From Owenia fusiformis (taxonomy: Eukaryota; Annelida; Polychaeta; Sabellida; Oweniidae), in NCBI GenBank assembly GCA_903813345.2, contig CAIIXF020000011.1, positions 6,224,571 through 6,288,570 of the forward strand: a stretch of DNA of 64,000 bases, read 5' to 3'. Under the pieces are notes generated by a model. The model did not search any database. It was not told the DNA's origin and worked only from the letters and a program-made list of their open reading frames with translations. The translations under genes were made by a program, and so were the position numbers. This document shows positions 16,203 to 62,325 of this stretch, piece by piece; positions within the stretch are counted from its first letter, which is position 1, and each line of letters opens with the position of its first letter.

Positions 16203-16790
16203 CAGATCTAGTGAGCAGGCCATCGACAAATTGTACAAGTGACTTCTGATCCTGAGATATATACCAGGGACTTCTGATCTTGTGATAAATACCACTGACT
16301 CTCAAACTACAGGAAAACTCTAAAGATTCTATTGCATGTGATGACAGTGAGTAATTTGTAATAAGTAACATATGCAGTTAAATATGCAGAAGAGATGGAT
16401 CTACATGAAACATCTACTAGTGTCATAGAAAAAAGAACTGTATCAAGATCTAGTATTGAACAAACAGCAACAAAACCTTTGGAAAAACATGTGGAAAAAC
16501 ATGTGGAAAAACATGAATGTGATGTCTGTCATAGAGTATTTGGTCACAAGTATGAATGTGAACAACATTATAAAGTTCATACTGAAGAGAGAAATTTCAA
16601 ATGTGATGTTTGTCTGAAGACATTTAAGAAAACATCTAACCTTGTAAAACATTCTAAGATACACACTGGAGAGAGAAATTCCAAATGTGATGTTTGTCAA
16701 AAGACATTTTACCTAAAATCTCACTTGGAGTCACATACTAAGATACATACTGGAGAGAGAAATTTCAAATGTGATGTTTGTCTAAAGACA

Positions 16791-19478
16791 TTTCACCAAA
16801 AATCTGACCTTGTAAAACATTCTAAGATACACACTGGAGAGAGAAATTTCAAATGTGATGTTTGTCTTAAGACATTTAACCAAAAAGCTAACCTTGAAAA
16901 ACATTCTAAGATACATACTGGAGAGAGAAATTTTAAATGTGATGTTTGTCTAAAGACATTTAACCAAAAATCTAACCTTGTAACACATTCTAAGATACAT
17001 ACTGGAGAGAGGAATTACAAATGTGATGTTTGTCTAAAGACATTTATCCAAAGAGTTACCCTTTTGTCACATTCTACGATACATACTGGAGAGCGAAATT
17101 TCAAATGTGATGTTTGTCTAAAGACATTTAAAAGAAAGGCTAACCTTGAAAAGCATTCAAAGATACATACTGGAGAAAAGAATTACAAATGTGTTGTTTG
17201 TCTAAAGACATTTTACCAAAAATCAGACCTTGTAAAACATTCTAAGATACATACTGGAGAGAGGAATTACAAATGTGATGTTTGTCTAAAGACATTTAAC
17301 CGAAAATCTAACCTTGTAAAACATTCTAAGATACATACTGGAGAGAGGAATTACAAATGTGATGTTTGTCTAAAGACATTTAACCAAAAACCTAACCTTG
17401 TAAAGCATTCTAAGATACATACTGGAGAAAAGAATTACAAATGTGTTGTTTGTCTAAAGACATTTTACCGAAAATCTGACCTTGTAAAACATTCTAAGAT
17501 ACATACTGGAAAGAGAAATTACAAATGTGATGTTTGTCTAAAGACATTTCACCAAAAATCTGACCTTGTAAAACATTCTAAGATACACACTGGAGAGAGA
17601 AATTTCAAATGTGATGTTTGTCTTAAGACATTTAACCAAAAAGCTAACCTTGTAAAACATTCTAAGATACATACTGGAGAGAGAAATTTTAAATGTGATG
17701 TTTGTCTAAAGACATTTAACCAAAAATCTAACCTTGTAACACATTCTAAGATACATACTGGAGAGAGGAATTACAAATGTGATGTTTGTCTAAAGACATT
17801 TCACCAAAAATCTCATCTTGAGTCACATTCTACGAAACATACTGGAGAGCGAAATTTCAAATGTGATGTTTGTCTGAAGACATTTAACCAAAAATCTTAC
17901 CTTGTAAAGCATTCTAGGATACATACTGGAGAAAAGAATTACAAATGTGATGTTTGTCTAAAGACATTTTACCTAAAATCTCACTTGGAGTCACATACTA
18001 AGATACATACTGGAGAGAGAAATTTCAAATGTGATGTTTGTCTAAAGACATTTAATCAAAAATCTAACCTTGTAACACATTCTAAGATACATACTGGAAA
18101 GAGAAATTACAAATGTGATGTTTGTCTAAAGACATTTCACCAAAAATCTGACCTTGTAAAACATTCTAAGATACACACTGGAGAGAGAAATTTCAAATGT
18201 GATGTTTGTCTTAAGACATTTAACCAAAAAGCTAACCTTGAAAAACATTCTAAGATACATACTGGAGAGAGAAATTTTAAATGTGATGTTTGTCTAAAGA
18301 CATTTAACCAAAAATCTAACCTTGTAACACATTCTAAGATACATACTGGAGAGAGGAATTACAAATGTGATGTTTGTCTAAAGACATTTATCCAAAGAGT
18401 TACCCTTTTGTCACATTCTACGATACATACTGGAGAGCGAAATTTCAAATGTGATGTTTGTCTAAAGACATTTAAAAGAAAGGCTAACCTTGAAAAGCAT
18501 TCAAAGATACATACTGGAGAAAAGAATTACAAATGTGTTGTTTGTCTAAAGACATTTTACCAAAAATCAGACCTTGTAAAACATTCTAAGATACATACTG
18601 GAGAGAGGAATTACAAATGTGATGTTTGTCTAAAGACATTTAACCGAAAATCTAACCTTGTAAAACATTCTAAGATACATACTGGAGAGAGGAATTACAA
18701 ATGTGATGTTTGTCTAAAGACATTTAACCAAAAACCTAACCTTGTAAAGCATTCTAAGATACATACTGGAGAAAAGAATTACAAATGTGTTGTTTGTCTA
18801 AAGACATTTTACCGAAAATCTGACCTTGTAAAACATTCTAAGATACATACTGGAAAGAGAAATTACAAATGTGATGTTTGTCTAAAGACATTTCACCAAA
18901 AATCTGACCTTGTAAAACATTCTAAGATACACACTGGAGAGAGAAATTTCAAATGTGATGTTTGTCTTAAGACATTTAACCAAAAAGCTAACCTTGTAAA
19001 ACATTCTAAGATACATACTGGAGAGAGAAATTTTAAATGTGATGTTTGTCTAAAGACATTTAACCAAAAATCTAACCTTGTAACACATTCTAAGATACAT
19101 ACTGGAGAGAGGAATTACAAATGTGATGTTTGTCTAAAGACATTTCACCAAAAATCTCATCTTGAGTCACATTCTACGAAACATACTGGAGAGCGAAATT
19201 TCAAATGTGATGTTTGTCTGAAGACATTTAACCAAAAATCTTACCTTGTAAAGCATTCTAGGATACATACTGGAGAAAAGAATTACAAATGTGATGTTTG
19301 TCTAAAGACATTTTACCTAAAATCTCACTTGGAGTCACATACTAAGATACATACTGGAGAGAGAAATTTCAAATGTGATGTTTGTCTAAAGACATTTAAT
19401 CAAAAATCTAACCTTGTAACACATTCTAAGATACATACTGGAAAGAGAAATTACAAATGTGATGTTTGTCTAAAGACA
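16791..19478 (+). repeat. Exact-period 1344-bp tandem duplication of 16 fingers
   Basis: The block starting at 16791 (fingers 4-19) is repeated from 18135 (fingers 20-35) at an offset of 1344 bp = 16 x 84. By eye the copies are essentially identical at nucleotide level. A third copy begins at 19479 and diverges after one or two fingers. Confidence 0.9.
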
Positions 19479-19898
19479 TTTCACCAAAAATCTGACCTTG
19501 TAAAACATTCTAAGATACACACTGGAGAGAGAAATTTCAAATGTGATGTTTGTCTTAAGACATTTAACCAAAAAGCTAACCTTGTAAAACATTCTAAGAT
19601 ACATACTGGAGAGAGAAATTTTAAATGTGATGTTTGTCTAAAGACATTTAACCAAAAATCTAACCTTGTAACACATTCTAAGATACATACTGGAGAGAGG
19701 AATTACAAATGTGATGTTTGTCTAAAGACATTTAACCAAAAAGCTAACCTTGTAAAACATTCTAAGATACATACTGGAGAGAGAAATTTTAAATGTGATG
19801 TTTGTCTAAAGACAATTAACCGAAAAGCTAACCTTGTAAAACATTCTAAGATACATACTGGAGAGAGGAATTACAAATGTGATGTTTGTCTAAAGACA

Positions 19899-19900
19899 TT
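19899..19900 (+). other. Frameshift site in the zinc-finger array
   Basis: The repeat consensus here is aagacatttaaccaaaaacc, as in fingers 11 and 27; this copy lacks one T of the TTT. The frame ends 22 nt later at TAA (19920-19922), while the fingers continue in the -1 frame. Confidence 0.85.
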
Positions 19901-21325
19901 AACCAAAAACCTAACCTTGTAAAGCATTCTAAGATACATACTGGAGAAAAGAATTACAAATGTGCTGTTTGTCTAAAGACATTTTACCAAAAATCTGACC
20001 TTGTAAAACATTCTAAGATACATACTGGAGAGAGAAATTTCAAATGTGATGTTTGTCTTAAGACATTTAACCAAAAATATCACTTTGAGTCACATTCTAA
20101 GATACATACTGGAGAGAGGAATTACAAATGTGATGTTTGTCTAAAGACATTTAACCGAAAATCTAACCTTGTGAAACATTCTAAGATACATACTGGAGAG
20201 AGGAATTACAAATGTGATGTTTGTCTAAAGACATTTATCCAAAGAGTTACCCTTTTGTCACATTCTAAGATTCATACTGGAGAGAAGAAGTTCAAATGTG
20301 ATGTCTGTCTAAAGACATTTAACCAAAAATCTTACCTTGTAAAGCATTCTAGGATACATACTGGAGAAAAGAATTACAAATGTGATGTTTGTCTAAAGAC
20401 ATTTAACCAAAAATCTAGCCTTGTAACACATTCTAAGATACACACTGGGGAGAGAAATTTCAAATGTGATGTTTGTCTAAAGACATTTTACCTAAAATCT
20501 CACTTGGAGTCACATACTAAGATACATACTGGAGAGAGAAATTTCAAATGTGATGTTTGTCTAAAGACATTTAATCAAAAATCTAACCTTGTAAAACATT
20601 CTAAGATACATACTGGAAAGAGAAATTTCAAATGTGATGTTTGTCTAAAGACATTTCACCAAAAATCTGACCTTGTAAAACATTCTAAGATAAATACTGG
20701 AGAGAGAAATTTCAAATGTGATGTTTGTCTTAAGACATTTAACCAAAAATATCACTTTGAGTCACATTCTAAGATACATACTGGGGAGAGGAATTACAAA
20801 TGTGATGTTTGTCTAAAGACATTTAACCCAAAATCTAACCTTGTAAAACATTCTAAGATACATACTGGAGAGAGGAATTACAAATGTGATGTTTGTCTAA
20901 AGACATTTATCCAAAGAGTTACCCTTTTGTCACATTCTAAGATTCATACTGGAGAGAAGAAGATCAAATGTGATCTCTGTCTAAAGACATTTAACCAAAA
21001 ATTTAGCCTTTAGTCACATTTTAAGATTCATACTGGAGAAAAGAATTACAAATGTGATGTTTGTCTTACAACATTTAATCAAAAATCTAGCCTTGTGTCA
21101 CAATTGAAGATTCATACTGGAGAAAAGAATTACAAATGTGATGTTTGTCTAAAGACATTTTATGACAAATCTAACCTTGTATCACATTCTAAGATTCATA
21201 CTGGAGAAAAGAATTACAAATGTGATGTTTGTCCAAAGACATTTTACAACAAATCTAACCATGATCACATTCTAAGATACATACTGGAGACATTTAACCA
21301 GAAATCTAGCCTTGTAAACATTTAA

Positions 21326-23868: not shown

Positions 23869-26800
23869 CTTGGCTCCATCGGGAGTTCACTCAGATTCAA
23901 ATACTCCATGACAACGGTTTGTAGCCTAGCAACCTGTGCATCATCTGGTGTGTTATACCATTGGTTCTTCAGAAAATTCACGAGGGCTTCTGGGAGTCGT
24001 GACAACATACGATTAAAGCTATCACAATTTCTGTTCTGTTCCACAACATTCAACAACCAATACTGAAAGGCCTGCCATCTAGGGGGTTCCTGGAAAGTGG
24101 AAACATTTCATAAAACAATAAACGCAAAAAAACAGTGTACCTATATCTGAAAACATATTGCACATGTTTGAATGCAAAACAATTATTTTATTTTAGAATG
24201 TGGTGGCATGCATTTGTTTTTGCCACACCCTTAGTGTCACTGTCTCACCACTTGTCATCTCTGTCAAAAAAATTAGTACCGTGGGTACTGGGCTCACATG
24301 GTGTTGCTCAAAAGTGAAAATAAAAAAAAGACGGGTATAATTTTTTGCAGATTTTTTGTGACAAAATTATTTCATACAACTACTCTTTACAAAGACATTG
24401 CTTTTTATAATGCAGGACACCTGAACTTATTTGTAAAGCTAGGAAATGGGCCAAAAGTGAATTTCCCGAGACAAAAATGGTGGCCACTTTGAAATTACGC
24501 GAGATTTTGAAGCAGGAGTCACAGGTTTTTTTTCTTTATTGATGTTGAACAAAATTATTAAATCGGGAATCCTATCTACAGAGGATTTAAAAAGTGTTGA
24601 CAGAGGTTTAAAACTTGCCACTTTTTTTGGACTGACTGAGAGACAGATGGACAAATCAATGTTAACTAAAATGGCTGAAAATAAAAAAAACTGATATAAT
24701 ATTTTGCCGATTTTTTGTAACAAAATTATTTCATACAACTACTCTTTACAGTGACATGGCTTTATACAATGCACCAATACACCATATATGGCAAATGTTA
24801 TTGAATGACAAGGCATTAACATGCAAAATGTCACTTCCTGCCATTTGTTACAGATGCTGAATGCCAGCTGCAAAACATTGATGGCAAAACACCATCCACA
24901 AAAGAAGTTGGAGACTATAACAATATGTCACCATTTCTGGTGGTGACATAAAAATGCAGAAACTATTGTGCCCTTGGAAAAAAATTCTGTATTTACAAAA
25001 GGTCATATCAGCTGATCAAGTCCCATTTTATCACTTGCCCCTTGAGGATCGAGAGAATTTGTTTGAACTTCATTTGGCAAAATCCAATAGAATCACTGCA
25101 GAGCAGGTCCACATAGTGAGAGCTGAGAGGGAGCAAAGCCCAATGTACTTAATAAAAGTCCTGACAAGCCTACCAAATATCAACATGATCAATGTCCCTC
25201 ACTGAGACAATCACACATCATAAGGGTAACCAGGGGGGGTGTGATCCAACCTATATAACCCCCCAACCTATAAAAAAAATTATAACCATGAGATAGAAAA
25301 AGAAAAGAGCTTTAAAATGCTTTTTATTTGAAGCTTCTAGCTCAATTTTGAAGGAAGTTGCATCAATTTTTGTAAAATTTAAGATAAATCTTAATTTTTT
25401 GGCTTGTTTATGCCACAATCGCACCCCCCTGACTGAAAACCGAAATTCTTTTGGCGATCGCACCCCCCCCTGACTGAAAGCTGGCTACGCCCCTGCACAT
25501 GAACCCAGCCTGTCTAATTTCTCACTTTTTACATGTTTTGCCGTAATTGCTTCCATGTTACTCACATTTGTACTTTTTATTTTGTTCAGCTTAGCCTACC
25601 CATAAAGGTGATTGGTATGTTATTGTGTACGACAAATTTTTATGATAAAATATAATGTCTATGTATAAAAAATGTTATTCAATTCTTACTTACCATAACT
25701 TTTGCAATGAAAGCATTTTCCCCTGCATCTCCAAAGAACATGTTGACTGATATTGTTGTTTGTGTAGAAGTCACTTGGTGCCACCAAAACGCTGGGATAA
25801 ATAACCTGTAACACACAAATCATTACCCTTTTCAATCAGTATGCAACACCAACCTCTGACTCTAATGGTACTCCTCTTATAAAGCAAGGATCTTATGCAA
25901 TATATTGCAATACGGGGCCCCTAGCCCACAAAACATGTGGAATAAAACATTCAAGGACCTTTGATATACCCCCTCCATGCCCGTAGAAAGGGAGATCCAG
26001 AGCATGAGAGGGTTCGATCGGCCAAAAATTCTTTCAAAATCATGCAGTTTTTCACAATTTTTTAAAATATTTTTTAAAGACTGAACTCCCCTTGACAAAA
26101 GCTGGCTATGGGCCTATCTTCTATCAAGACTATACTTTTTAAGTACTGAACCCCCTTTGGCAAAAGCTGGCTATGGGCCTACCTTCTATCAAGACTATAC
26201 TTTTTAAGTACTGAACTCCCCTTTGGCAAAAGCTGGCTATTGGCCTACTTTCTATCAAGACTATACTTTTTAAGTACTGAACTCCCCTTTTGCAAAAGCT
26301 GGCTATGGGCCTACTTTCTATCAAGACTATACTTTTTAAGTACTGAACTCCCCTTTGGCAAAAGCTGGCTATGGGCCTACCTTCTATCAAGACTATACAT
26401 CTATGAAGGCTATACATGTCATACAATTACAAAGTATTTTTTTTTTTTTTTTTTTTTAATTAAAATCAATGTAACATATTTACAGGTTGTAGTGGCTATG
26501 ACCCCCAAGAGGGAGTATTAGGTGCCACATAATGGTATTTACAATGATTTGTGAAATATTATGAGAAGTGTACATGTAATTGTGTAAAGTATGATATTGT
26601 ACATAATTGAGAAAATAAACTGATTTAATGGAAATGATTAAAGGTCTCTTCTACAATAACAGGTGCAAGCAGTAAAAATGTGTAAAGAAATAGTACAAAT
26701 TTCAATATTACATTATTAAATAGTATAACATGATAGCATCTGATGAGATTGTACAGTAGTTCAAGGAACTACTCCTCCAAGTATAGATTGCAGTAATAAT

Positions 26801-29800
26801 CTTTAAATGACTTTTTGAGAATAGGGATGCTTTTTGAGGTTTTGATATCAGAGGGTGTTTCATTCCATATAAGGCCACCTTGAACTAAAATACTCTTCTT
26901 TCCATAGTTAGTGTTAAATTTGGAGATATGGAGATCATTCACTTGTCGAGTGAAATGATGATGAATGTCCATATTGCATTTATAATAATTACAAAAAAGA
27001 TCAACTGGAAAATCAATTTTTCTTAAACATTTGAACATGAATATAAGAACATTAAGATGGTAAACATCAACTATCTTTAAGATTTTAAGTTGGGCAAAGA
27101 AACCTGATGTATGCTCCCTATTGCTTTTGCATTGCATAGCTATTCTAAGAAATCTTTTCTGCAGTTTTAAAAGTGGTTCTAAAGTTGTTTTACTTGCTGT
27201 ACCCCATATTGGGATGCAGTATTGCAAATGAGAGTAGATTAGTGAATAATATATTGTCAAAAGAGTTTTTAAACTGAAGAGAGATCTTGTTTTGAAAAGT
27301 ATTCCCAAGGTTTTTGAAATTTTGAGAGAGATCTTTTGTATATGTTCCTTCCAATTTAGATTTTGATCAATGACTACACCAAGAAAGTTTGTTGAAAGAA
27401 CTCGGTTGATTTTTGAATTTCTAATCTTGATGGATATATCAACAGGAACCTGTTGCTGATTCGTAGAGAATATCATGTAATTTGTTTTTTCGATATTAAG
27501 GGATAATTTATTTGTGCTAAACCATTTGTCAACTGTACATAGCTCATTATTAACTTTATGTGTAAGGGTATTGATGTCTCTATCAGAACAAAGTAAATTT
27601 GTATCGTCTGCAAATATGACAGATTTAAATACATTACTGACTGAAATAAGATCATTTATATATATAATAAAAAGGAGAGGACCCAATATCAATCCCTGAG
27701 GGACGCCACACGTGATTGTATTCAGTTTAGAGCTTTCAAAGTTAAAATATGTAAATTGTTTTCTATTAGTCAAATAGCTTTCAAACCAATTATATGCCTT
27801 ACCTTTGAATCCATAAAATTTGAGTTTTGAGAGGAGAATAACATGATCAACGGTATCAAAAGCCTTACTAAGATCTAAAAATATTCCAATACTAAATTGT
27901 TTAGTATCCATTGCTTTTCTTAAGTTTTCGAGAAAAGTGAGAATAGCTAGACAAGTGGATCTGTTTCTTCTGAAGCCAAATTGTTCTTTACATAAAATTT
28001 TGAATTTTTCAATAAAATCAATTGCTCTATTGTACATAATTTTTTCAAATACTTTAGAAAATACGGATAATAATGATATAGGGCGATAGTTACTGAATAG
28101 CATAGGATCATTCTTTTTGAAAATTGGGATAATTTTTGCAATTTTCAATGAGTCAGGAAATATGCCAGTTGATAAAGAAAGGTTGGTTAGAAAAAGTAAT
28201 GGTGGTGTTAAAGTGTCACAGGTATTTTTCACTGTTATTGGTTTAATTTGATCATGACCTGCTGATGAATCTTTTAAGTTTTTCAAAATTTGATTTACCT
28301 CTTCTGATGTCACTTTTTCAGATATATACTTTGTTCAAAATTGTCAGTTAGCTGTTTAAGGAAAAATGTTGGGGTTTTATTTGATACAGGAATTTGGTTT
28401 GCTAAATTTGGACCTATTTCGGTAAAGTAGTTATTGAAGTGATTGGCAATTTCTTTAGGATCTGTGATTTTATTTTTATTATGAATAAAGTGTTGTCTCT
28501 TTTTTCCAGGTTGTTTTTGTCTTCTAAGAATTTCATTTATAGTTTTCCATGTATCTTTTAGATTTCCAGCTAATTTTTGAAATTTATTTTTGTAGTAAAG
28601 CCATTCAGCATTACGAATAAGTTGTCTTAAGATCCTTTTGAATGATTTATATTCAGTTAAATTAATATTTGTTGGGTATTTCAAGTATTTAATGTAAAGT
28701 TTATTTTTTCTTTTAATTGAGTTGAAAATTGCATTGGACAACCATGGTTTGGAATTGTTAAATTGATATCTCAGTATTTTACTTTTTAAGGGAAAACATT
28801 CATTGTACACAGTCATTATTTTTTGGTAAAAGATTTCATAACCTTCATTAACATCTGTACATTTATAAAGATTGTCAAAATCAGCACTAGCCATTTTATT
28901 TTTGAAATCAATATGATTCTGTTGTTCATTAATCGAAAATTTATTTTGTCTGTGACCTGCTTAGTATAAGTAATATTAGCAATGGCATATATGGGAAAAT
29001 GGTCTGATATGTCAGTTAGAACTATTCCAGATTTATCAACATTTAAAGAATTAGTGAAAATATTATCAATCAGTGTAGCTGTTGTAGGAGTTACTCGAGT
29101 TGGTCGAAATATTGTTGGATAAAGGTTAAAAGAAAGCAATGTATTCAAAAAAAGTTCAGTACCATCATGGCCTGTGTTTAATAAATCAATATTAAAATCA
29201 CCCATGAGAAAAATATTCTTATTTTCTTTGTTTAGAAGATTAAGAAAGTGCATCATGTCATTATTAAATTGATTAAGATTAATGTCAGGAGGTTTATATA
29301 CTACTGATATTAAACTATTTTTACCACGATCATTGATAATCTCAATGGTTATAATTTGTGTCTCATAATCATTAGTAATATTTAAGTCAGCTCTTAATTT
29401 GTAGTTAATATTTTCCTTGATGAAAATCCCAACCCCTCCTCCCATTCTATCTACACGAGAAACAAATTCAGATGAAAAGCCTTTAATAAAATATTCAGCC
29501 TCATTTTCAGGTTTAAGCCAGGTTTCAGTAATGCCAATAACGTCAAACTGGTTTTCAATCATTTCATTCAGATTTACAAGTTTTAAGTAATTATGAGGTA
29601 AGCTCCTCATATTGATACATGCTGTAACAAAACTTTCAGTTTTCATTGATTTAATATTTGAATTGAGGGTTTCAGGATACTGGTACTTGCAGGAGTTCAT
29701 AATATTTTGACTACTTATGTCTTGTGGTGTAAGTTCGTAATCCTGAGAATGTATTCCAATTTGTCTATCTGTTGATGGGTCAAAAAGTAGGTTTTGAAAA

Positions 29801-32800
29801 TCATCATATTCCTCCATATAGTCTTCTAAATGGAGGAAAAAAGGCAGATGCATCATTAAGTTAGTTTCATCAGAATCAACCATTGTATATATGTTTAAAA
29901 GTACTCAAAATTCTGAAGGTTGCACCCACGATTGGTGAAGAGATCTGATTAACCGTGATAACAATCATACTCATATCTTAAAAGAAGAGTTATGACTAAG
30001 ACAAAGCAAGTGTCATGTCAATTTAATCTGAAGAAATGCATAATATAGTCAAATATGTTTACATGCATGGAAAATCAAAAATTAAAACCAGCTGATGTAG
30101 TGCATCAGAAATAAAAACAACCCCAATTATTGACCTGTCTCTTCTATACATATGTACATACGACTATATTCAGATTGGTTATAAAAACAAACCAATTTAT
30201 TGACCTATTGAGAAAAGTTATAATAAGAAACAGTATGATCTGAGTATGGCAGGATGTCCACTCATGGTTTATAAATGTAGAAAAGATGCCAATACAATGA
30301 GTAATGTTAGTCAGTGGTAAGTAAAATATTTTCAATCAATGCTCTCCAATAGAGCATAGTAATTACCAGTACAATAATGTAGTGTTAGCCAGTGTAGTGT
30401 AAGTAGAATGTTTTCAATGCAAGGGTGGCTGTTTGAAAATACATAGGATTAGCTCCTAGATTTAGCAATACAAAATCAACACAAACAGGCCAATATATAA
30501 GTAAACTCACATGTCTCCAGAGTTTAAGGTGCCATATCTGCACTTAGCATTGCAGAAGTTTGGATGCATATTCCAGTCAGGATCATCAAAGTTTACCCCA
30601 GATTGCACAGTCCTGCCTTTGGTACCTTTAGGATTAGGGTACATGGAGTCAATATCACATCCATAGAGTCTGACATGTTTTTGCCCATTCAGAATTATGA
30701 GTAGACCATCATCAGGGTCAAAATGGCAATATTCTGAAATAAGAATGTACTTTATAAAATTTTAACCAAATCAGTCCACAGGTATTTGAGTCATCAACAA
30801 TTACAAAAAAAGGCAGCCATTTTGAAATTCAGAGGCCATCTTAAAAATGTCTTCTTGAGCAAAGCTCCTTTGTCCCTTGGCATCAGCATATAAAATTTGA
30901 AATGAATTTGTCAACTCGTATTTAAGTTATCAAAATATTACATTTTTTACAAAAAAATGGTAACCATTTTGAATTGAGCGGCCATATTGAAAATTCCTTC
31001 TCAAACAGAGATCCTACTCCCATATAGGCATAAGACTATCAAATTTGAATGAAATCCGTCAACTGGTATTTGAGTAATTGGCCTGACAGATTGACGAATG
31101 GACTTACAGACGGACGGCTTCACTATATGATCCCTCTTGAACTTCATTTGGTGGGATAATAAATTTATAGATATTTACCATAATGATTCTGCAAAGCTAT
31201 CCACATGAATGGTCCTCCATGTAACTTTCCCACATATTCAGGAATTTTTATATCATCCTGAAAATGAATGAAGCCAATCAGGGAATAATCTTTTCAATAG
31301 TTAATTTCACTTATTTTAACTCAAGGTAGTAGTCACCACTAACCCCTCAGGGAAATATGAGAAAATACACGTTGAGAACTATCTCAATAAAATATTCAAA
31401 TTTTCAATCTCTGAAAAATGTATTTTATCTTACTGAAATAGAGAACCATTTGAAACTCAATTCTGCTTGACTACCACTATTTCCCTCTTTTGTTGTTATG
31501 GTCAAAGAACAACAATGATTTCCCAGGCATTAAAGCAAGTGGGCGCAGTACCCACCTGAAAATATAGGCTTGCACCCACCTGAAAATCTATTTGCACCCA
31601 CTTGAAAATGAGAAAAATCATGAAAATTGGCTTATTTTGACCAATTTTGGTCTGAATTGTGAAAATGAGAATTTTGCAAATAATCCTGGGGAGACAACTG
31701 AAAAAGTTGCCCATTGGGCAATTGCCTGAATGCCAATATGTTAATTATGGCGGTCATGTTTTAACATTAACCATGAATAAACCTGGATACAATATATTCA
31801 TTATATTTCATCTGTCATAACTATTCATTCTCATCTTAATGCAATTCTTTCTCCGCATCTTTCCAATAAATTAAAAAATTCTTTATTTTATGAACCCTTT
31901 TAGAATGATAAAGGTACCTCTACCAAAGATTCACACCTTCGCACAACAAATGTTTTAAAAACTTCTTACCAGTAATTCAGGAAATGTTTGTTTCATATTC
32001 TGTACTGCCATGTAAGAGCTCTTAGCCTTGGCATTCATTGCTTTGATATCTGAGATGTACTCCTTTAAGGTTGTCTGGCGTATAAAGTACTGTTTCCCAT
32101 TCTGTAAAAATGTAAATGTACATGTACATGTAAATATTACCATAGACAAAGCTAGCTCTGAGGATATGAAGTTTCACATTTATTTTTATTTATTTAGTTT
32201 TACTCAATGTGATTGCAGTTATAGTTAATACAAATCAATTACAATAAACACCCTGTGTATGCTTAGTTAAAAACAAATAATATAGACAAGGTATGATGTC
32301 TAATAGGAGTGAAATATCATCTTTGGCTCAGGTTTTGCCTTATATACCTGTATCTACTGTTACGTACAATTATTGACCTGTACAGAGGTAGCCTGTACAA
32401 ATTGTATACTGACAGTGAAAACGGAAACCCCAGTCTTAAATTGTCCTGTTTATGAGAAACAATGAATTTTGAACGGTGTGAATTCATGACCTTATAAAAT
32501 AGTTTGTACCTTGTATTCTTCTGTGTTTGTTTTCCACCTGACATTGCAAGTTTTATGCCCCACCCTTTCAGAGAGTGAATCAAGAGTCCATTTCCCTGCG
32601 GGCCAGTCATCTATGGCATTTTCTATAATAATGGGTTCTCCTGGAAAAATAAAGGAATTTTTCTATGACATTCATTTAACTTAGCTTCTTAAAAGGTACA
32701 ATGTAATCACAGAGACAGTCGAAGCTTAGCCGTTGCCAGAAGGATGATTTTCTATACAGTGCGTCTCAAAAAATGCCACAAACAAAAACAATTGTAATAT

Positions 32801-47640: not shown

Positions 47641-50600
47641 ATTCTAGCCTGGTGGAGAATGTACATATTAACCTTGCTGCTATCAAAAGACGTGCAGAGA
47701 CATTAGGGACCAGGAGGTGTGTCAAGAAACAGTGGCAGGTAGATGGGATATTATACTCTTGTTTCTGCCCATGGGCCTTTGATAAAGATGGAAATTTTAT
47801 TTTTGCTGTGTATCTATTTTAAGTGAATCTTCGATTATTGATTCTCTTCATACATAAAGTTGTTCTTGTTACATTAATTTATAGGCTGCCTGGCTACTTC
47901 GTGCTGTAACATGTATAGATTTGACGACACTTGCGGGTGATGACACAGAAAGTAACGTGAGCAGACTCTGTTTTAAAGCCAAACAACCAATCAGACATGA
48001 CCTTATCCAAGCCTTGAAACTTGGCGATTTAGGTAATTTATACACCGCCTATTTTTTTATTTAAAATCTTTTCAAACTCTATGATTTGTAATGTTTATTT
48101 TTCAGGAACATTTCACAGTAGAGTAACCCAGGAAAGTAACTCTACATTATAAATTATAGCGATTTCCCCAAAATTTTTGCAACAGGCATCATAATTTTTA
48201 AAAACTTGCACGCTCATGTATTCAAATCTTAACAAAACAATATGTGATTTTGGTGTTTATTCTATCGTTGCCTGCTGTTAATGAAAATCATCTAAGTTTT
48301 TCATGTTTCAGAGATCAACTGTGGTGCAGTTTGCGTTTACCCAAACAGGGTGGCAGATTGCGCTAAATACCTCAAACGTGCAGGGGCCTCACATATACCT
48401 ATAGCATCAGGTAAGAGCCTCAGATAAACCTATAGCATCAGGTAAGAGCCTCACATATACCTATAGCATCAGGTAAGAGCCTCACATAAACCTATAGCAT
48501 TAGGTAAGAGCCTCACATATCTGTAGTGTCAAGTAGGAGCCTCACATAAACCTATAGTATCAGGTAAGAGCCTCACATAAACCTATAGCATCAGGTAAGA
48601 GCCTCACATAAACCTATAGCATCAGGTAAGAGCCTCACATAAACCTATAGCATCAGGTAAGAGCCTCACATGAACCTATAGCATCAGGTAAGAGCCTCAC
48701 ATAAACCTATAGCATCAGGTAAGAGCCTCACATAAACCTATAGCATCAGGTAAGAGCCTCACATAAACCTATAGCATCAGGTAAGAGCCTCTCATAAACC
48801 TATAGCATCAGGTAAGAGCCTCACATATACCTATAGCATCAGGTAAGAGCCTCACATAAACCTATAGCATCATGGAAGAGCCTTGCATACACATATAAGA
48901 GCCTCACATATATCTGTATCATCAGAGTGTCACACATACATTAAAAGCCAGACTAGTAAAAGAACTGGCCCCTCATATTGATGTTGTATATTCTATTGTG
49001 TACTATAGACTGGATTATTAATGGAAAAGATGGCCTCTCAGATTAATGCTGTATAAGGTTCAGAATAAAATTACAAACTTTCAAAGACTTACTGACGATG
49101 AGAAGTTCTATATCTTGATGTCAAATCATGAGATTGCTGTTGATGTGGCAAAGGCCTGTGGCCAAATGTTTAAAAAAAGAGAACATAAACTGTACAGTTA
49201 ATTTTGATGAATATCGGTTTATACATAGTATCTTATAGGCCGAACACGGCCTGGGGTAAGAATATTGAATGTTTTTAATACGTTTGAATTTTATTACCAT
49301 TTGTATTTTAGCTACATATTGTATTATTAATATATGCCCAGGACACTTTAATAAATTTTACAAATACAAATACAAATAATTTATTGTATATTCTACTGTG
49401 TATTCTAGATTCATTTATTAAAGGAAAAGATGGCCAGATTGATATTGTATAATCTATTGTACATTCTATTGTGTATTCTAGTTGCAACTGGGTTCCCCAC
49501 AGGGCAGACACCCCTGAAAACCAGACTTGAGGAGATCCGCCTCGCTGTATCGGAAGGAGCCTCCGAGATTGACATAGTCATCAACAGAACACTAGCATTA
49601 GGAGGGGACTGGAAAGGTACAATGGTTTTATCTCATCACCACAAGCCCGTAGCCAGGTGTGTGGGTTCGGGCTGGCCAAAAATTCTTTTAAAATCATGCA
49701 GTTTTTCACCATTTTGAGCACTTTTCAAGTGATTTTGGCCATTTTTGGCCAATGTTGTCAAAAGCATACACCCTGGAATTTTTCAAAAAATAAACTCTCT
49801 TGGCAAATCCTGGCTACGGGCTGTCATCACAAGTGTTATAGTCTCAAACTTATTTGGGGACAGTGTTAAGCATTTGGTAGTTGGTGTCTGTAACAAATGG
49901 CACGTGGTGACATTTTGCATGTTTAATATGTCTTGTTTATAGATGCAATTTATTTCATCATTTCAATACATACTGGAGATTGATACAATAAGTTTGGCTT
50001 TAGTTCTTATTTGGCGATTTGAAATTAAATTTCTTCCAATTTTCACTTGTGTCATTATTCCCGTATGGATATCAGTGACCTTACTGTAAGTAATACACAT
50101 TAAACTGAAATGCTTATTTGCAGAAGAATGATACAACTTAAGCTCAATCCATTAAGTGTATCTAAAGTATGTATTCTGCAGTTATAGGCCTAATGAAAAA
50201 TATAGTATCAATACACACTCAGTACAATTGAGTAGATATATTCAAAGGAGGTTCTTTTATCCCATCATTGTACTTCTAGGTGTTTATGAGGAAGTAAAGT
50301 TGATGAAAGAGGCATGTGGTGAGGCTCATTTGAAGACAATCTTGGCTGTGGGAGAATTAGGTACACTTGCTAATGTACGGAAAGCAAGCATGGCGTGTAT
50401 GATGGCAGGTATGTCAATGGTCCAATTTTGTATCATTAAAACTGTCATGTGGTACTTCATCTCTTACCCAGTACCCATTGGCTTTAATGTTACCTACTTT
50501 ATGATGGATACCACCTGATGGGAACACTTCCTTGTATAATTAAAGATGTTCGACATTCATAGGTTTATTTGAACACCTCTGTCAAAAGAACACTTTTAAA

Positions 50601-51611
50601 TGTTCATTTTAAGTAACTCACATATTGGCTAATTACACTCAACAAGTTGATTTTGAGTTTGAAAAATGATGAATGTTCATTATCTAGTGATGTTCATTTT
50701 TACAATATTTTCTCTCGTTTTATCATTTCCAATATAAATGTACATTGATACACATATTTGATTAAAGCGATTTTTCAATATTTGATATTACCATAGGTGC
50801 TGATTTTATAAAGACCTCAACTGGCAAGGAAGGTGTGAACGCCAACTTTGTGGTGGCTCTAGTCATGGTTCGTGCAATCCGGGATTACTTCCAACTAACT
50901 GGATTTAAAGTAAGAATCATAGAGCGCCAGGCCTGTAGCCAGGGAAGGTGGGGAGGGGGGAGGGGGGTTCAAGTGTATTTATTTTAAAATCATAGAGTTT
51001 TTCACCATTTTGAGCAATGATTTTGGAATTGGAATTTTTTTTAAATTGACCCACCCACAGGCTACAGACCTGAGCTCTGTTCTCACATTCTTTCTCCACA
51101 AAAAATTGATTTGCATGTTACTGAACCTTTTCTATAAGGAACAACTACTACATAAAAGGAACAATAATGGCCTGTGAAGATTCCCAGGTTTTATTGCTTT
51201 TCAATCAAGAATTTAATACCATTGGAAATTTTCTCATGATTCATATTGCCCGCCAAAATATGGCTGTAACCAAAGTACAATACAATACTATAGTATAATA
51301 GTATTATAGTTTGGATAACTTTAGTTCAAGAATACTCAAAAAGGAAAATGATCTAGTGTTTAAATTCTACACCTTGATGGACGATTTGAAATCTGTACTT
51401 GCAGGTGGGTTTCAAGCCAGCTGGAGGAATCAGAAGTGCTAAAGACGCCTGCACGTGGTTGTCTCTAATGAAGGAAGAACTAGGGGAAGAATGGATGAAA
51501 AATGATCTGTTCAGACTTGGCGCGAGTTCTCTCCTCGGTGATATTGAACGCCAGATCTTCCATTACGTCACGGGGAGATACGCTGCAGCCCACGAGTTGC
51601 CTATGGCGTAA
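47641..51611 (+). CDS. DERA: Deoxyribose-phosphate aldolase, first exon missing
   Basis: A cytosolic class I aldolase that cleaves 2-deoxyribose 5-phosphate to glyceraldehyde 3-phosphate and acetaldehyde in deoxynucleoside breakdown. Exons: 47641-47738, 47885-48032, 48312-48410, 49482-49616, 50280-50408, 50797-50909 and 51405-51611 (TAA). Phases match throughout and give about 309 residues of the usual ~318. Visible motifs: TCIDLTTLAGDDT, VCVYPNRV, ATGFPTGQTPLKTRLEEI, the Schiff-base lysine in DFIKTSTGKE, the second lysine in GFKPAGGIR, and C-terminal RQIFHYVTGRYAAAHELPMA. The catalytic set is intact, so the enzyme should be active. The donor of the exon ending at 48410 opens directly into a 31-bp tandem array made of copies of itself. 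Other introns contain MITEs and a LINE fragment. Confidence 0.95.
48386..48876 (+). repeat. 31-bp tandem repeat built from a splice donor
   Basis: From the true exon end (cctatagcatcag|gtaag at 48410/48411) about 15 contiguous copies of a 31-bp unit (gtaagagcctcacataaacc then tatagcatcag) follow. The last 25 nt of the DERA exon are the first, partial unit. Most units recreate CAG|GTAAGA, a strong 5' splice site. Confidence 0.95.
49055..49380 (+). mobile_element. 3' fragment of a LINE
   Basis: 49055-49201 encodes a reverse-transcriptase C-terminus-like peptide (RLTDDEKFYILMSNHEIA) ending at TAA. A 3' UTR follows, ending in (aaatac)n. Similar sequence on each side (gaaaagatggcc and tattctattgtgta at about 48985-49035 and 49390-49480) suggests insertion into, or duplication of, the intron region just before the exon at 49482. 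Confidence 0.55.
49643..49822. mobile_element. GGCCCGTAGCCAGG-type MITE in DERA intron 4
   Basis: Left end agcccgtagccagg and right end cctggctacgggct form inverted repeats. The interior matches 52708-52916. The exon-4 donor (49617) is only 27 bp upstream. Confidence 0.85.
50928..51072. mobile_element. GGCCCGTAGCCAGG-type MITE in DERA intron 6
   Basis: Left end caggcctgtagccaggg and right end aggctacagacctg. The interior is shortened. The insertion begins 18 bp after the exon-6 donor. Confidence 0.75.
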
Positions 51612-55530: not shown

Positions 55531-58500
55531 TTAACAGCAATGTATCTTCAATGACGCCTTCTTAAATGAGTACTGCCGATTATCAGGGGATCCGATGACT
55601 GTTGGCCAATCACGCCATGCGACACATTGGGCAAACTTTGGGCAAACTGGTCCTTTGTACCAACCAAACAGATTTGAATTGTGGCACTTCTCGTACCACC
55701 AACCTCCTTTATAAACGCTTGCACAATTTCCGCTGTGAATATCATTATCTTGATCGTATGTTGAAAACCGATGTCCATTATGACGTGCCATTGAATCACC
55801 AGCAGTTCCGCTGTATCCTCCAATGGTAAGACGATACTTGTCGGTCTTGTCTGCGATGGAGAATACCGAATATTCAGCAAATCGTTTAGCCGGTGATACA
55901 GGTGGCCATGCTTCCAAATCAATTCGCATTTTGCACTTACGCCCTTTTACAAAACTGGCAAGGTTGTCCAGTCCAATGAAGTATTCTTTCCATTTTGGGC
56001 TACCGAAACCATGTTGATACTCGACCCAAGTACGATAGAAATCCTCAGCCCCGTTGAATCGTCTAAATATGTACGTCCAACCTTCGTCACAGAACGCTCC
56101 GAAAATTCTTCCGTCGCTTGTTCTTATGTTTCTTGCACCAGTTGCTATAGGGTCTTCGCAACAGTCATTCAAGTAACAAACTAGACAAAATTGAAAAACC
56201 AATTAGCAGAAATTATCAATAATGATTTTTGTCCGAATTGTCTTTGTTCTGTTGTTAGAGCAGGTTGAAGAATTTCCATTTGATTAAACATAAAGATCCA
56301 ACGATAGCTAACAACATTGTCCCTTGGTCCATCTAAGTAGGCAAAACTCGCGATAAAAGAAGCTTGTTTCAGTATGCGAGAAGTGGACAATGATCATGCT
56401 TTCAAAATCAAATCGCAACTTTCAATTTCCTCCATTTTGAGCAACACTCTGGAAGCAGTGGAAGCTGGTGACGTCAATTATGATGAAAATTCATATTACC
56501 AAGAATATAGGGTGTCTCAAAACATGTACCCAAAAGTATATCAAATGCAAAGAGAAACCAATCAATATTTTCAGATATTCTTTGCATGGTCATTTTGGCA
56601 AAACATGAACGTTTTCCCCCCAATTCTAAATTTTTAGTTCAGCCATGCCTTTTTAATGCTTTAACCCTTTTTATACCATGTCTTAAATTTAACCTCCTCA
56701 TATTTCGATGACAGTCTGCATCCTTACTGCTGCTACATTGTCGATCACATTTCAAAATGTTTGAGGTGGAATATTTTGAATTTCTTTTGAGATGTTGGCC
56801 TTAGAGATGTATTATACCATAGGTTTCTCCCCAGACAATCAATGATGTCCTATTGTTATTGCTCATATAATATCTCATATCCTATGGATATATCTTGAGA
56901 ATAAATTTTGGGTATATTATTGCCGAAATATTGAAATAATCAACAGAACAACCGAACTCCAGAATTAAACACAATCGATTCCTCGGCTAGCGAGGCTAAT
57001 CCCCATTGAGTCACACAAGCGCCCACAAGCGCCTTGAACCAGGCAGCCAATCGGGTTCATAAATTCAACGACCAATCAGATAACAGGAGGACTTTCCCGG
57101 TATATTCAAACTTCAGATTGAATTAATTTCTTAAAAATAATTAGATCGCAAAATTAACACTGAAAGAGAGGGATTTTGGATTTGGGACTATGCAAAAAGT
57201 CTAGAGGAGTCTTGATTGTGCAACCTATGGCATAGGGCCTCTTTAAGTTGTTCTAGGTTTCTTTGGTTGGGGACCTAGAACAACGTAAGGCCAACATCCA
57301 AAGAGAAATGCAAAACGTTCCACCAGAAGCATTATTAATGTGATGAACAATGAAGCATAACGATGCAGGCTGTCATCGAAATTTGTAATAAAAAAGTAAG
57401 GGATTAAACTATCAAATAGGCAAGACTGACCTAAAAATTGTGTATTGGGGAGAAAACTAACATGCTCTAGCCACATGATCATGCAAAAAATATTTAAAAA
57501 TATTGATTGGTTTAGTTGTGCTGTTGATATACTTTTGGGTACATTTTCTGAGACACCCCCCGTATACATTTCAAAATACATTTCTACCCCAGGAATGAAT
57601 TTGAAGTACTTTGTCAAATTCCCAACACCTGACATTACATCGCATCATCCCAACCATTTCCCGACCCTTCCCCCATTGGGGCCACTCGTAAAGTTTTGAA
57701 CAGTGTTCAATGTTTGATTGTCTACACAGGGAGATATGCCGAGTACTAAAATAGTACTCATTGCATTTTAGCGCTAATTGAGTACTCATTTCAGCAAATA
57801 TTAGTACTAAATGAGCACTTATGACATGAGTACTGTTTTATTGCATGTTTTAGTACTAAATGAGTACTCATATGATGAGTGATAAAATAGCGCTAAATTC
57901 ATTGATTTTTCATTACTCAATGAGCACTCATTCTATGAGCACTAATTAATTGCATGTTTTAGTACTAAACGAGTACTCATATGATGAGTGATGAAATAGC
58001 GCTAATTCAATTGATTTTTCATTACTCAATGAGCGCTCATATTATGAGTACTAATTTATTGCTCATGTTTCACGAGTGATAGAATAGTACTCAAAGATTA
58101 AAATGTTGATAATTTTTTTTAATTGATGAAGTAAAATATAGAATACGTTATAAATTACATTTTAATTGTACGAAAACATGGATAAATATATCATTAAGCT
58201 TTTCAAAAAATTCCCATTCCTTTAGCTATATCATGTAATGGGTTGAAGCTAGGAAACAAAATGACAGACACCATACTGTTCCATTCTTGAGAAAAGTGCA
58301 TATATATATACATTGATTTGTTACTTAAAATAAGTGAAAGATGAGGTAAGTTGTATTAAATGAAAAGTTACTAAAATTACAAGGTAAGTGAGATATATCA
58401 TGTGTTACAAACATAAGGTGATGTGGGAGGTAGTCTAAATTACAAAATTGAAGGTAGCATGTCAATTGTATGCGAGCTAGAATGATACCTACTGAGTGCT

Positions 58501-61306: not shown

Positions 61307-62325
61307 TTAACAGCAATGTATTTTCATTGAGGCCTTCTTAAAGGAGTAGTAATAATTTGAAGGGGATCCGATGACTGTTGGCCAATTATTCCATGCGACA
61401 CATTGGGCATAACTTGGGCAAACCGGTCCTTTGTACCAACCAAACAGATTCGAAGCATGGCACTTCCCGTACCACCACGCTCCTTTAAAACTGCTTGCGC
61501 AATTTCCATTGTAAATATCATGATCTTTATCGTACGTCGAAAACCGTTGTCCATTTTGAGCTGCCATTGAATCACCAGCTGTTCCACTGTATCCTCCAAT
61601 GGTAAGACGGTACTTGTCGGTCTTGTCAGCGATGGAGAATACTGAATATTCAGCAAATCGTTTAGCCGGTGATACGGGTGGCCAGGCCTCCAAATCAATT
61701 CGCACTTTGCACTTACGCCCCTTCACAAAACTTGCAAGGTTGTCCAATCCAATAAAGTATTCTTTCCATCTTGGTTCACCAAAACCATGTTTATACTCGA
61801 CCCAAGTACGATAGAAATCCTCAGCCCCGTTGAACCGTCTAAATATGTACGTCCAACCTTGCTCACAATACGCTCCGAATATTTTTCCTTCGCCTGTTTT
61901 GATGTTTCTCCCACCAGAGGATATGGGGTCTTCGCAACAATCCTTCAGGTAACAAACTGGACATATTGAAAAAATAATTATTCATTTATGCCAGTGACGC
62001 ATAATCACTGGTGATGCAATCGATTACGGTGGTTAGAACCGTTTCGGTAATAAAATGTCGGAATCTCGACGTTAAGATTTTTCTTTTTTCCTTATTTTAC
62101 GCGTTGTAGGCTTTAAAAAACGGTTAAGATCTGCACTTCTAACCGTACCTTCGAGGTTCCAAACGAACCAGCGTAATCGAGTGGATCATCAGTTATAATG
62201 ATCTTGCTTCGTAATCGAATCTCACCTTGCTTACATATGGATGTTTACTCAACTGTTAAATACACTTGCACTATAAATATGACGTTTAGGATTTATGTTG
62301 TTCTTACCTTCACATTTGTCACCAC
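61307..62325 (-). CDS. Secreted fibrinogen-related protein 2, first exon missing
   Basis: A tandem paralogue of the gene at 55531-59653. The terminal exon 61307-61956 is exactly 650 nt, as in gene 1. It encodes CYLKDCCEDPISSGGRNIK, GWTYIFRRFNGAEDFYRTW, YFIGLDNLASF, a calcium-loop-like DKDHDIYNGNCA, GAWWYGKCHASNLFGWY and a KIHCC terminus. The 18-nt microexon is 62308-62325. The signal-peptide exon was not found between 62326 and the window end. A minus-strand frame ending in phase 1 at about 63541 (HTHAG) fits by phase but is not hydrophobic, so the true first exon may lie outside the window. The frame is fully open, so the gene looks intact. Predicted to be extracellular like its neighbour. 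Confidence 0.85.
62308..62325 (-). CDS. 18-nt microexon of fibrinogen gene 2
   Basis: Acceptor ttcatcag, exon GTGGTGACAAATGTGAAG, donor gtaagaac. It differs from gene 1 by a single base. Confidence 0.85.

Follow-up and report, generated by a model that had tools for sequence, protein, structure and literature searches.

The end of a coding exon and the splice donor that follows it are repeated into a 31-bp tandem array in a gene of the 64,000-nucleotide stretch of Owenia fusiformis DNA analysed here (the window), a gene that its family match assigns to deoxyribose-phosphate aldolase (DERA/DeoC). We read this array as a minisatellite that grew at an exon edge and is tolerated since the donor nearest the exon is the one taken, and as one case of a growth that affected the donors of at least 13 other genes in the same way, as well as some acceptors. 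We consider this reading probable, at about three chances in four. The array, the intact reading frame, the near-identical donors, the stop codon that they share, the recurrence in other genes and the mirror image at acceptors are all described here from the DNA. The DERA array itself is probably without a job.

The DERA gene and the array at its exon end

Six exons of the gene, all on the forward strand, join without a break from 47885 to a stop codon in the exon that ends at 51611. These are the exon before the array exon (47885..48032, bounded by TATAG/GCTGCC and TTTAG/GTAATT, the slash marking the splice junction, with the joined frame intact), the array exon (48312..48410, 99 nt, phase 1 to phase 1), the next exon (49482..49616), which starts VATGFPTGQTP, and the remaining exons at 50280-50408, 50797-50909 and 51405-51611 (TAA). 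Another coding exon was read by hand upstream, at 47641-47738 of the same strand. The joined protein scored 146.7 bits against the deoC model TIGR00126 of NCBIfam, the cut-off of which is 117.3, and matched E. coli DeoC (1jcl) with an E-value of 4.3e-46. With a curated family cut-off passed, the predicted product is deoxyribose-phosphate aldolase. A search of the genome with the Pfam DeoC family gave no match, while the protein query did find DERA; single exons probably score too low for the family model.

The array was placed by TRF at 48386..48897 of the forward strand, with a period of 31 bp, 16.6 copies, 92% matches and a score of 870 (repeat family D1, in register). It has the head-to-tail units of about 10-60 bp in several near-identical copies that characterize a minisatellite. 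Each unit is composed of a 25-nt exon part and a 6-nt intron part. The array straddles a real exon end, as judged by the joined DERA frame and the protein match: its first 25 nt are the last 25 nt of the array exon, and the rest is intron. The intron with the array (48411..49481, forward strand) is 1071 nt long, 487 nt of which are array, and the intron on the other side of the array exon measures 279 nt.

The array contains 15 donors. Fourteen units end in GTAAGA, 13 of them as CAG/GTAAGA and one, at 48504, as TAG/GTAAGA; the fifth unit is 29 bp long and ends CAA/GTAGGA. Donor 1 (CAG/GTAAGA, 48411..48416, forward strand) is the sole donor that keeps the DERA frame. The other donors span 48442..48848 on the same strand and begin at 48442, 48473, 48504, 48533 (GTAGGA), 48564, 48595 and 48626 (donors 2-8) and at 48657, 48688, 48719, 48750, 48781, 48812 and 48843 (donors 9-15). 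Distal to the last of these no donor is left (TGGAAG stands at 48873), and the copies fade gradually. The 14 units showed one substitution in 126 donor cells and 7 in 308 other cells, numbers that are too small to judge selection on the donor columns. The original prediction described about 15 copies of a 31-bp unit at 48386-48876, composed of the last 25 nt of the DERA exon plus its donor, with CAG/GTAAGA in most copies. The structure found agrees with it in all of these points, the motif being present at 13 of the 15 donors and the array extending to 48897. The prediction also named the exon as exon 3. It is indeed the third coding exon located, but the number is uncertain because the exon that carries the start codon was not found.

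A weaker second observation is that the array-bearing intron carries a 52-nt block of its acceptor region three times on the forward strand. The first (48984..49035) contains an acceptor-like stretch, the second (49384..49435, 85%) has TATTCTAG at about 49408, and the third (49445..49496, 62%) holds the true acceptor, TATTCTAG/TTGCAA, at 49481/49482.

Four partial DERA copies were found at C11:6313462-6370474, on contig 11 like the window itself and about 25-82 kb beyond it. They are 3′ parts of the gene, with matches that begin after the exon at 49482-49616 in the 7.5-9.5 kb examined around each. Over the aligned part of the last exon the protein identity is 95-100%, and a TAG lies inside the matches of two of the four. 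Their use as an array-free or array-length comparison was ruled out, both the array exon and the array being absent from the examined stretches. Among the copies found, the DERA gene of the window alone has the exons of 47885-49616. A working enzyme could therefore be made from this assembly only if splicing took out the array from donor 1 onward, whether at once or in several steps.

Arrays at donors and acceptors across the genome

The whole genome was searched with patterns of three motif copies at short spacing, each compared with a reversed-motif control. Three copies of CAGGTAAGA at a spacing of 17-47 bp gave 66 matches, 9 of them in the DERA array, and the reversed pattern gave none. 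The excess was not uniform among patterns, since three copies of CAGGTAAGT matched 72 times and their control 56 times. Three copies of CAGGTAAG gave 303 overlapping matches against 65 reversed, and the counts were 190 against 93 for AAGGTAAG and 326 against 18 for CAGGTGAG. Pattern counts are swollen by large arrays, and distinct arrays were therefore taken instead. They numbered 46, with 22 in a first set that includes DERA and 24 in a second set. The matches of CAGGTAAGA, CAGGTAAGT and the control GAATGGAA were covered whole, and the arrays from CAGGTAAG, AAGGTAAG and CAGGTGAG are those among the matches listed, which reach part of C4, C7 and C3, respectively. Matches at C3:7460328 and C4:3454492/3455628, with a unit the same as or similar to that of array L002, and at C5:3014138, with the unit of L037, were set aside. 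The rows at recognized exon ends hold between about five and upwards of seventy near-identical donors.

Fourteen of the 46 arrays begin at an exon end that is recognized by a Pfam or NCBIfam model or by the sequence of a PDB entry. Pfam matches above the cut-offs were obtained for Peptidase_M24, kringle, PF15874, B56, MIX23, ankyrin, tRNA_bind, SNF, UDPG_MGDP_dh_N and Rieske_4; PDB sequences identified ARL8B (5.5e-12), NCS-1 (2e-10) and stomatin (2.3e-7); and DERA was recognized by NCBIfam (TIGR00126). Where a gene name goes further than the family or molecule label given by the tools, it is the name that we take to apply. The Pfam runs comprised 30 donor peptides from 29 arrays, with frames picked by eye and 16 arrays with short frames left out; the last glycine of the L020 peptide was added on expectation. 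Known protein sequence reaches the exon-nearest copy in every recognized array, and the ARL8B, NCS-1 and stomatin matches include even the final residue ahead of donor 1 of their arrays. When the exons before and after the array were joined by hand, a single domain match ran across it in the kringle (68.6 bits), B56 (99.9 bits) and MIX23 (33.3 bits) genes. Another 12 of the 46 arrays are likely cases, with an open frame up to the first donor and no firm family, and in 20 of the 46 no exon was seen at the array start.

Several candidates were not counted as recognized: L049 (Ku_N, E 0.01), L038 (hydrolases, E 0.055-0.085) and L024, in which the dynein DHC_N1 match of 22.6 bits fell below the cut-off of 28.3. 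Neither L049 nor L054 had a match among PDB sequences. Array L003 (region of C1:50109063-50109154, reverse strand, at about 1400-1563) was rejected as an exon-end array and counted as negative. It follows a phenylalanyl-tRNA synthetase exon (E 3.2e-4) that, in our reading, has a likely donor, the weak-looking CAACAG/GTCAGT, 54 nt before the first donor of a five-copy GTAAGC array. From its sequence this locus appears to be a natural contest in which a weak donor comes first and a strong one second.

Two arrays, L026 (1575-2084) and L034 (1588-1842), are open in the frame of their exon for 170 and 85 codons, respectively; as their units are multiples of three, the use of an inner donor would add protein repeats and not a stop. 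In L023 (C3:6490900-6494000, from about 1544), the 17-bp unit is a T-rich stretch plus CAG/GTAAG. The units resemble a row of recursive splice sites, and no exon was seen beside this array.

The reversed motif GAATGGAA gave 22 distinct arrays over the whole genome. None of the 22 was recognized and none resembled an exon end. Twenty control peptides from 11 of these arrays, some of them cut to the last 40-60 residues and with two frames of 20 and 23 residues left out, had no Pfam match better than E 0.077. The difference between 14 of 46 and 0 of 22 has a Fisher p of 0.002. In this comparison the frames of the donor set had been chosen by eye and five of its peptides were searched against PDB sequences as well, with the control peptides searched against Pfam only. 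When the open frame at the array edge was taken by a script, its median length was 51.5 codons for donor arrays and 23 for control arrays (p 0.001), or 51.5 against 25 codons (p 0.005) without three control arrays that have almost no flank (L069, L075 and L077).

The place where the repeat unit ends relative to the donor was also compared. Ten of the 14 recognized arrays have a unit that stops at intron base +5 to +7, against an expectation of about 1.6 under uniform placement, which assumes a break anywhere that leaves the donor whole; the unit lengths of L020 and L030 were set by hand in this comparison, TRF having given double and triple units. There was no such pile-up among the likely arrays (2 of 12, against 1.4 expected). 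That an array must have bases +1 to +5 intact to be picked up by the search sets the lower limit of the unit end and does not account for the pile-up. A unit end at +5 to +7 falls immediately beyond the U1-pairing part of the donor. This position raises the idea that donors seed the growth of arrays, a recurrent process breaking or stalling the DNA at active donors and copying the exon tail behind. A paused, U1-bound transcript may serve as an example of such a stalling point. We regard donor seeding as a tentative and unlikely idea. If true, introns would be lengthened at their 5′ ends, and rows of decoy donors, which only a strict cross-exon rule could ignore, would fill the genome.

Mirror arrays were found at acceptors. 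Three copies of TTTTNCAG matched 611 times and the control 349 times, one dispersed family accounting for part of this. The sample comprised 24 of about 32 distinct places outside that family, among the matches listed (part of C3), and ten acceptor-side peptides were run against Pfam. In at least 2 of the 24 places recognized coding sequence starts at the last acceptor. One belongs to an unconventional myosin (myosin-Ib, 2e-7; Pfam Myosin_head at 14.6 bits, below the cut-off) and the other to TMEM144 (9.3e-12). Among the 24 places, L095 and L105 had no tandem array and L098 runs beyond the examined end. Thus, at both edges, acceptor and donor, the known protein begins or ends at the exon-nearest copy.

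Choice among near-identical donors

The U1 duplex was scored at -11.0 kcal/mol for 13 of the 15 donors, -9.4 for donor 4 and -4.2 for donor 5, using what we take to be the 5′ end of U1. Four other DERA donors, those scored in register with the donor at 47740 left out, ranged from -4.5 to -8.3 kcal/mol. U1 pairing is equal in 13 of the 15 donors and therefore cannot single out donor 1. Secondary structure was rejected as the cause of a first-donor choice, the unpaired value predicted by local folding being 0.34 for donor 1 and those of the 15 donors ranging from 0.22 to 0.53. We infer from the frame and the protein matches that donor 1 is the donor used.

Whichever of donors 2-15 is taken, the frame would reach one common TAA, which belongs to the first unit of the intron and precedes the last exon junction by 393-794 nt, a layout expected to trigger decay. 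These data uphold what had been proposed for the inner donors: that strong, near-identical donors stand in a row, most of the later ones equalling donor 1 in U1 pairing; that the frame past donor 1 reads TCA GGT AAG AGC CTC AGA TAA; that only the first donor preserves the protein, the deoC match being obtained from donor 1; and that the others would give a premature stop and probably decay, which the layout allows for. The idea that the array tests, in nature, how a first donor is selected from a long row can be widened to at least 13 further genes. A last proposal, that copy number could modulate DERA expression, was not supported, the nearby partial paralogues having neither the array exon nor the array.

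In another reading, for which one can cite the same stop given by 14 of 14 inner donors at such a distance from the last junction, the array is regulatory: a share of the messages would pass through inner donors and decay at the shared TAA, and copy number would set the DERA output. We find this unlikely, since the class affects unrelated genes and the unit lengths are multiples of three in 9 of 26 arrays. Unrelated genes and the lack of a frame bias are as expected for tolerated growth.

For the tolerated exon-edge minisatellite the sequence of events could be as follows. A segment made of the DERA exon tail and the first six bases of the intron would have been duplicated in tandem and expanded to about 16 copies within the intron, the copies presumably being made by slippage or unequal exchange. 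The spliceosome would pair sites across the exon first and would so settle on donor 1, which is closest to the upstream acceptor, and the remaining donors would then be plain intron. Exon definition may thus be the reason why the array is tolerated. In minigenes with two identical CAG/guaagu donors and flanking introns of 365 nt, the upstream donor was reported to be exclusive in five of five constructs (PMC9225289). The use of the first donor in DERA is therefore expected under exon definition, and the puzzle is smaller than first implied. The cut-off of the short-intron class in the two-donor minigene study is reportedly about 250 nt. The upstream intron of the DERA array exon, at 279 nt, is close to that class, which has the opposite preference, and this counts against the exon-definition reading.

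The same report describes short introns as favouring the sites closest across the intron, and the downstream donor as favoured, before strength matching, in the majority of human alternative-donor events of each of the four intron classes (PMC9225289). For acceptors under exon definition it gives an upstream preference that is reduced, not reversed, so that the acceptor mirror is less well explained by the rule (PMC9225289). Judged on their sequences, the recognized donor arrays fit the exon-definition rule obtained with two-donor minigenes.

The array might also correct itself. Any donor could be used first, and the leftover units (GTAAGA...CAG) would be removed as introns of 31 x n nt to leave one message. 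The consensus unit is bounded by GT...AG and contains a single branch-like CTCAC, the A of which stands 19 nt from the end. Set against this, the 20 nt before the AG are only 55% pyrimidine, compared with 70% at three real DERA acceptors, and we know of no intron as short as a single 31-nt unit. Tandem AGGT duplicates of 24 bp are reported to be spliced out in fission yeast (PMC4974935), which speaks for the idea; on balance we consider self-correction quite improbable. That the array is an error of a single assembly, tandem arrays being error-prone, is very improbable, given that the units carry distinct substitutions and one of them is 29 bp long, that the distal edge fades gradually and that similar arrays occur in unrelated genes. 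A mobile element with donor-like sequence as the source of the repeat is hardly credible: the L002 unit is common to loci on C1, C3 and C4, but a genome search found the DERA array DNA at one place only in the 498-Mb, 525-contig genome, and its first unit lies inside matched DERA protein sequence.

Relation to known systems and other features of the window

Internal tandem repeats with units of about 30 bp have been described at exon-intron boundaries in human segmental-duplication genes, where they can alter splicing (PMC2812944). Those repeats are like the DERA array in being minisatellites of about 30-bp units on an exon-intron boundary. As reported, they were found through length differences between paralogous exons, average four copies and include 27 intron modifications (PMC2812944), whereas here an existing donor is itself repeated, in about five to more than 70 copies and at exon ends of unrelated genes. 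The tandem duplication of AGGT is known as a route to new introns in the Rogers model (PMC4974935). The DERA unit shares with it a duplicated AG/GT segment (ATCAG/GTAAGA) and copies bounded by GT and AG. However, both ends of the intron are duplicates in the model as described there (PMC4974935), and in DERA the acceptor, at 49481/49482, is not a duplicate copy of the unit but lies outside the array, so that the duplication lengthens an intron. The rule in PMC9225289 likewise concerns identical CAG/GTAAG donors that compete, the one nearest the upstream acceptor being expected to win; the work reported there used two donors in designed minigenes, and DERA has about fifteen in a natural gene, with more or fewer in other genes.

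Recursive splice sites, which give zero-length exons, combine a pyrimidine tract with a juxtaposed CAG/GTAAG. The DERA unit has CAG/GTAAG in common with them but is without a strong pyrimidine tract (55%, against 70%). The available portion of PMC12783039, on intronic minisatellites, holds no boundary case. Among the papers listed from an open-licence library, none was seen to describe a donor expanded into a long row, or arrays like these as a genome-wide class, and absence there proves little.

Donor choice among equals has so far been tested, in the work reported in PMC9225289, in minigenes with two sites. At least 14 recognized genes, and perhaps many more, hold natural rows of donors in which the protein sequence marks the exon end. 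RNA from one species could measure, gene by gene, how strict the choice of the exon-nearest donor is, and this strictness could be related to copy number, distance, exon size and intron length. The arrays also suggest a way in which introns lengthen.

Other features were observed in the window. An 84-bp tandem repeat of 56 copies at 16365-21325 is open for 1185 codons and then continues in other frames; we take it to be a long run of C2H2 zinc fingers. Three overlapping open frames on the minus strand at 26769-29904 presumably resemble a reverse transcriptase and an endonuclease such as non-LTR retrotransposons carry. A tandem pair of similar open frames, 223 and 224 codons long, stands on the minus strand at 55531-56202 and 61307-61981, and we assume that they are perhaps secreted fibrinogen- or lectin-like proteins.
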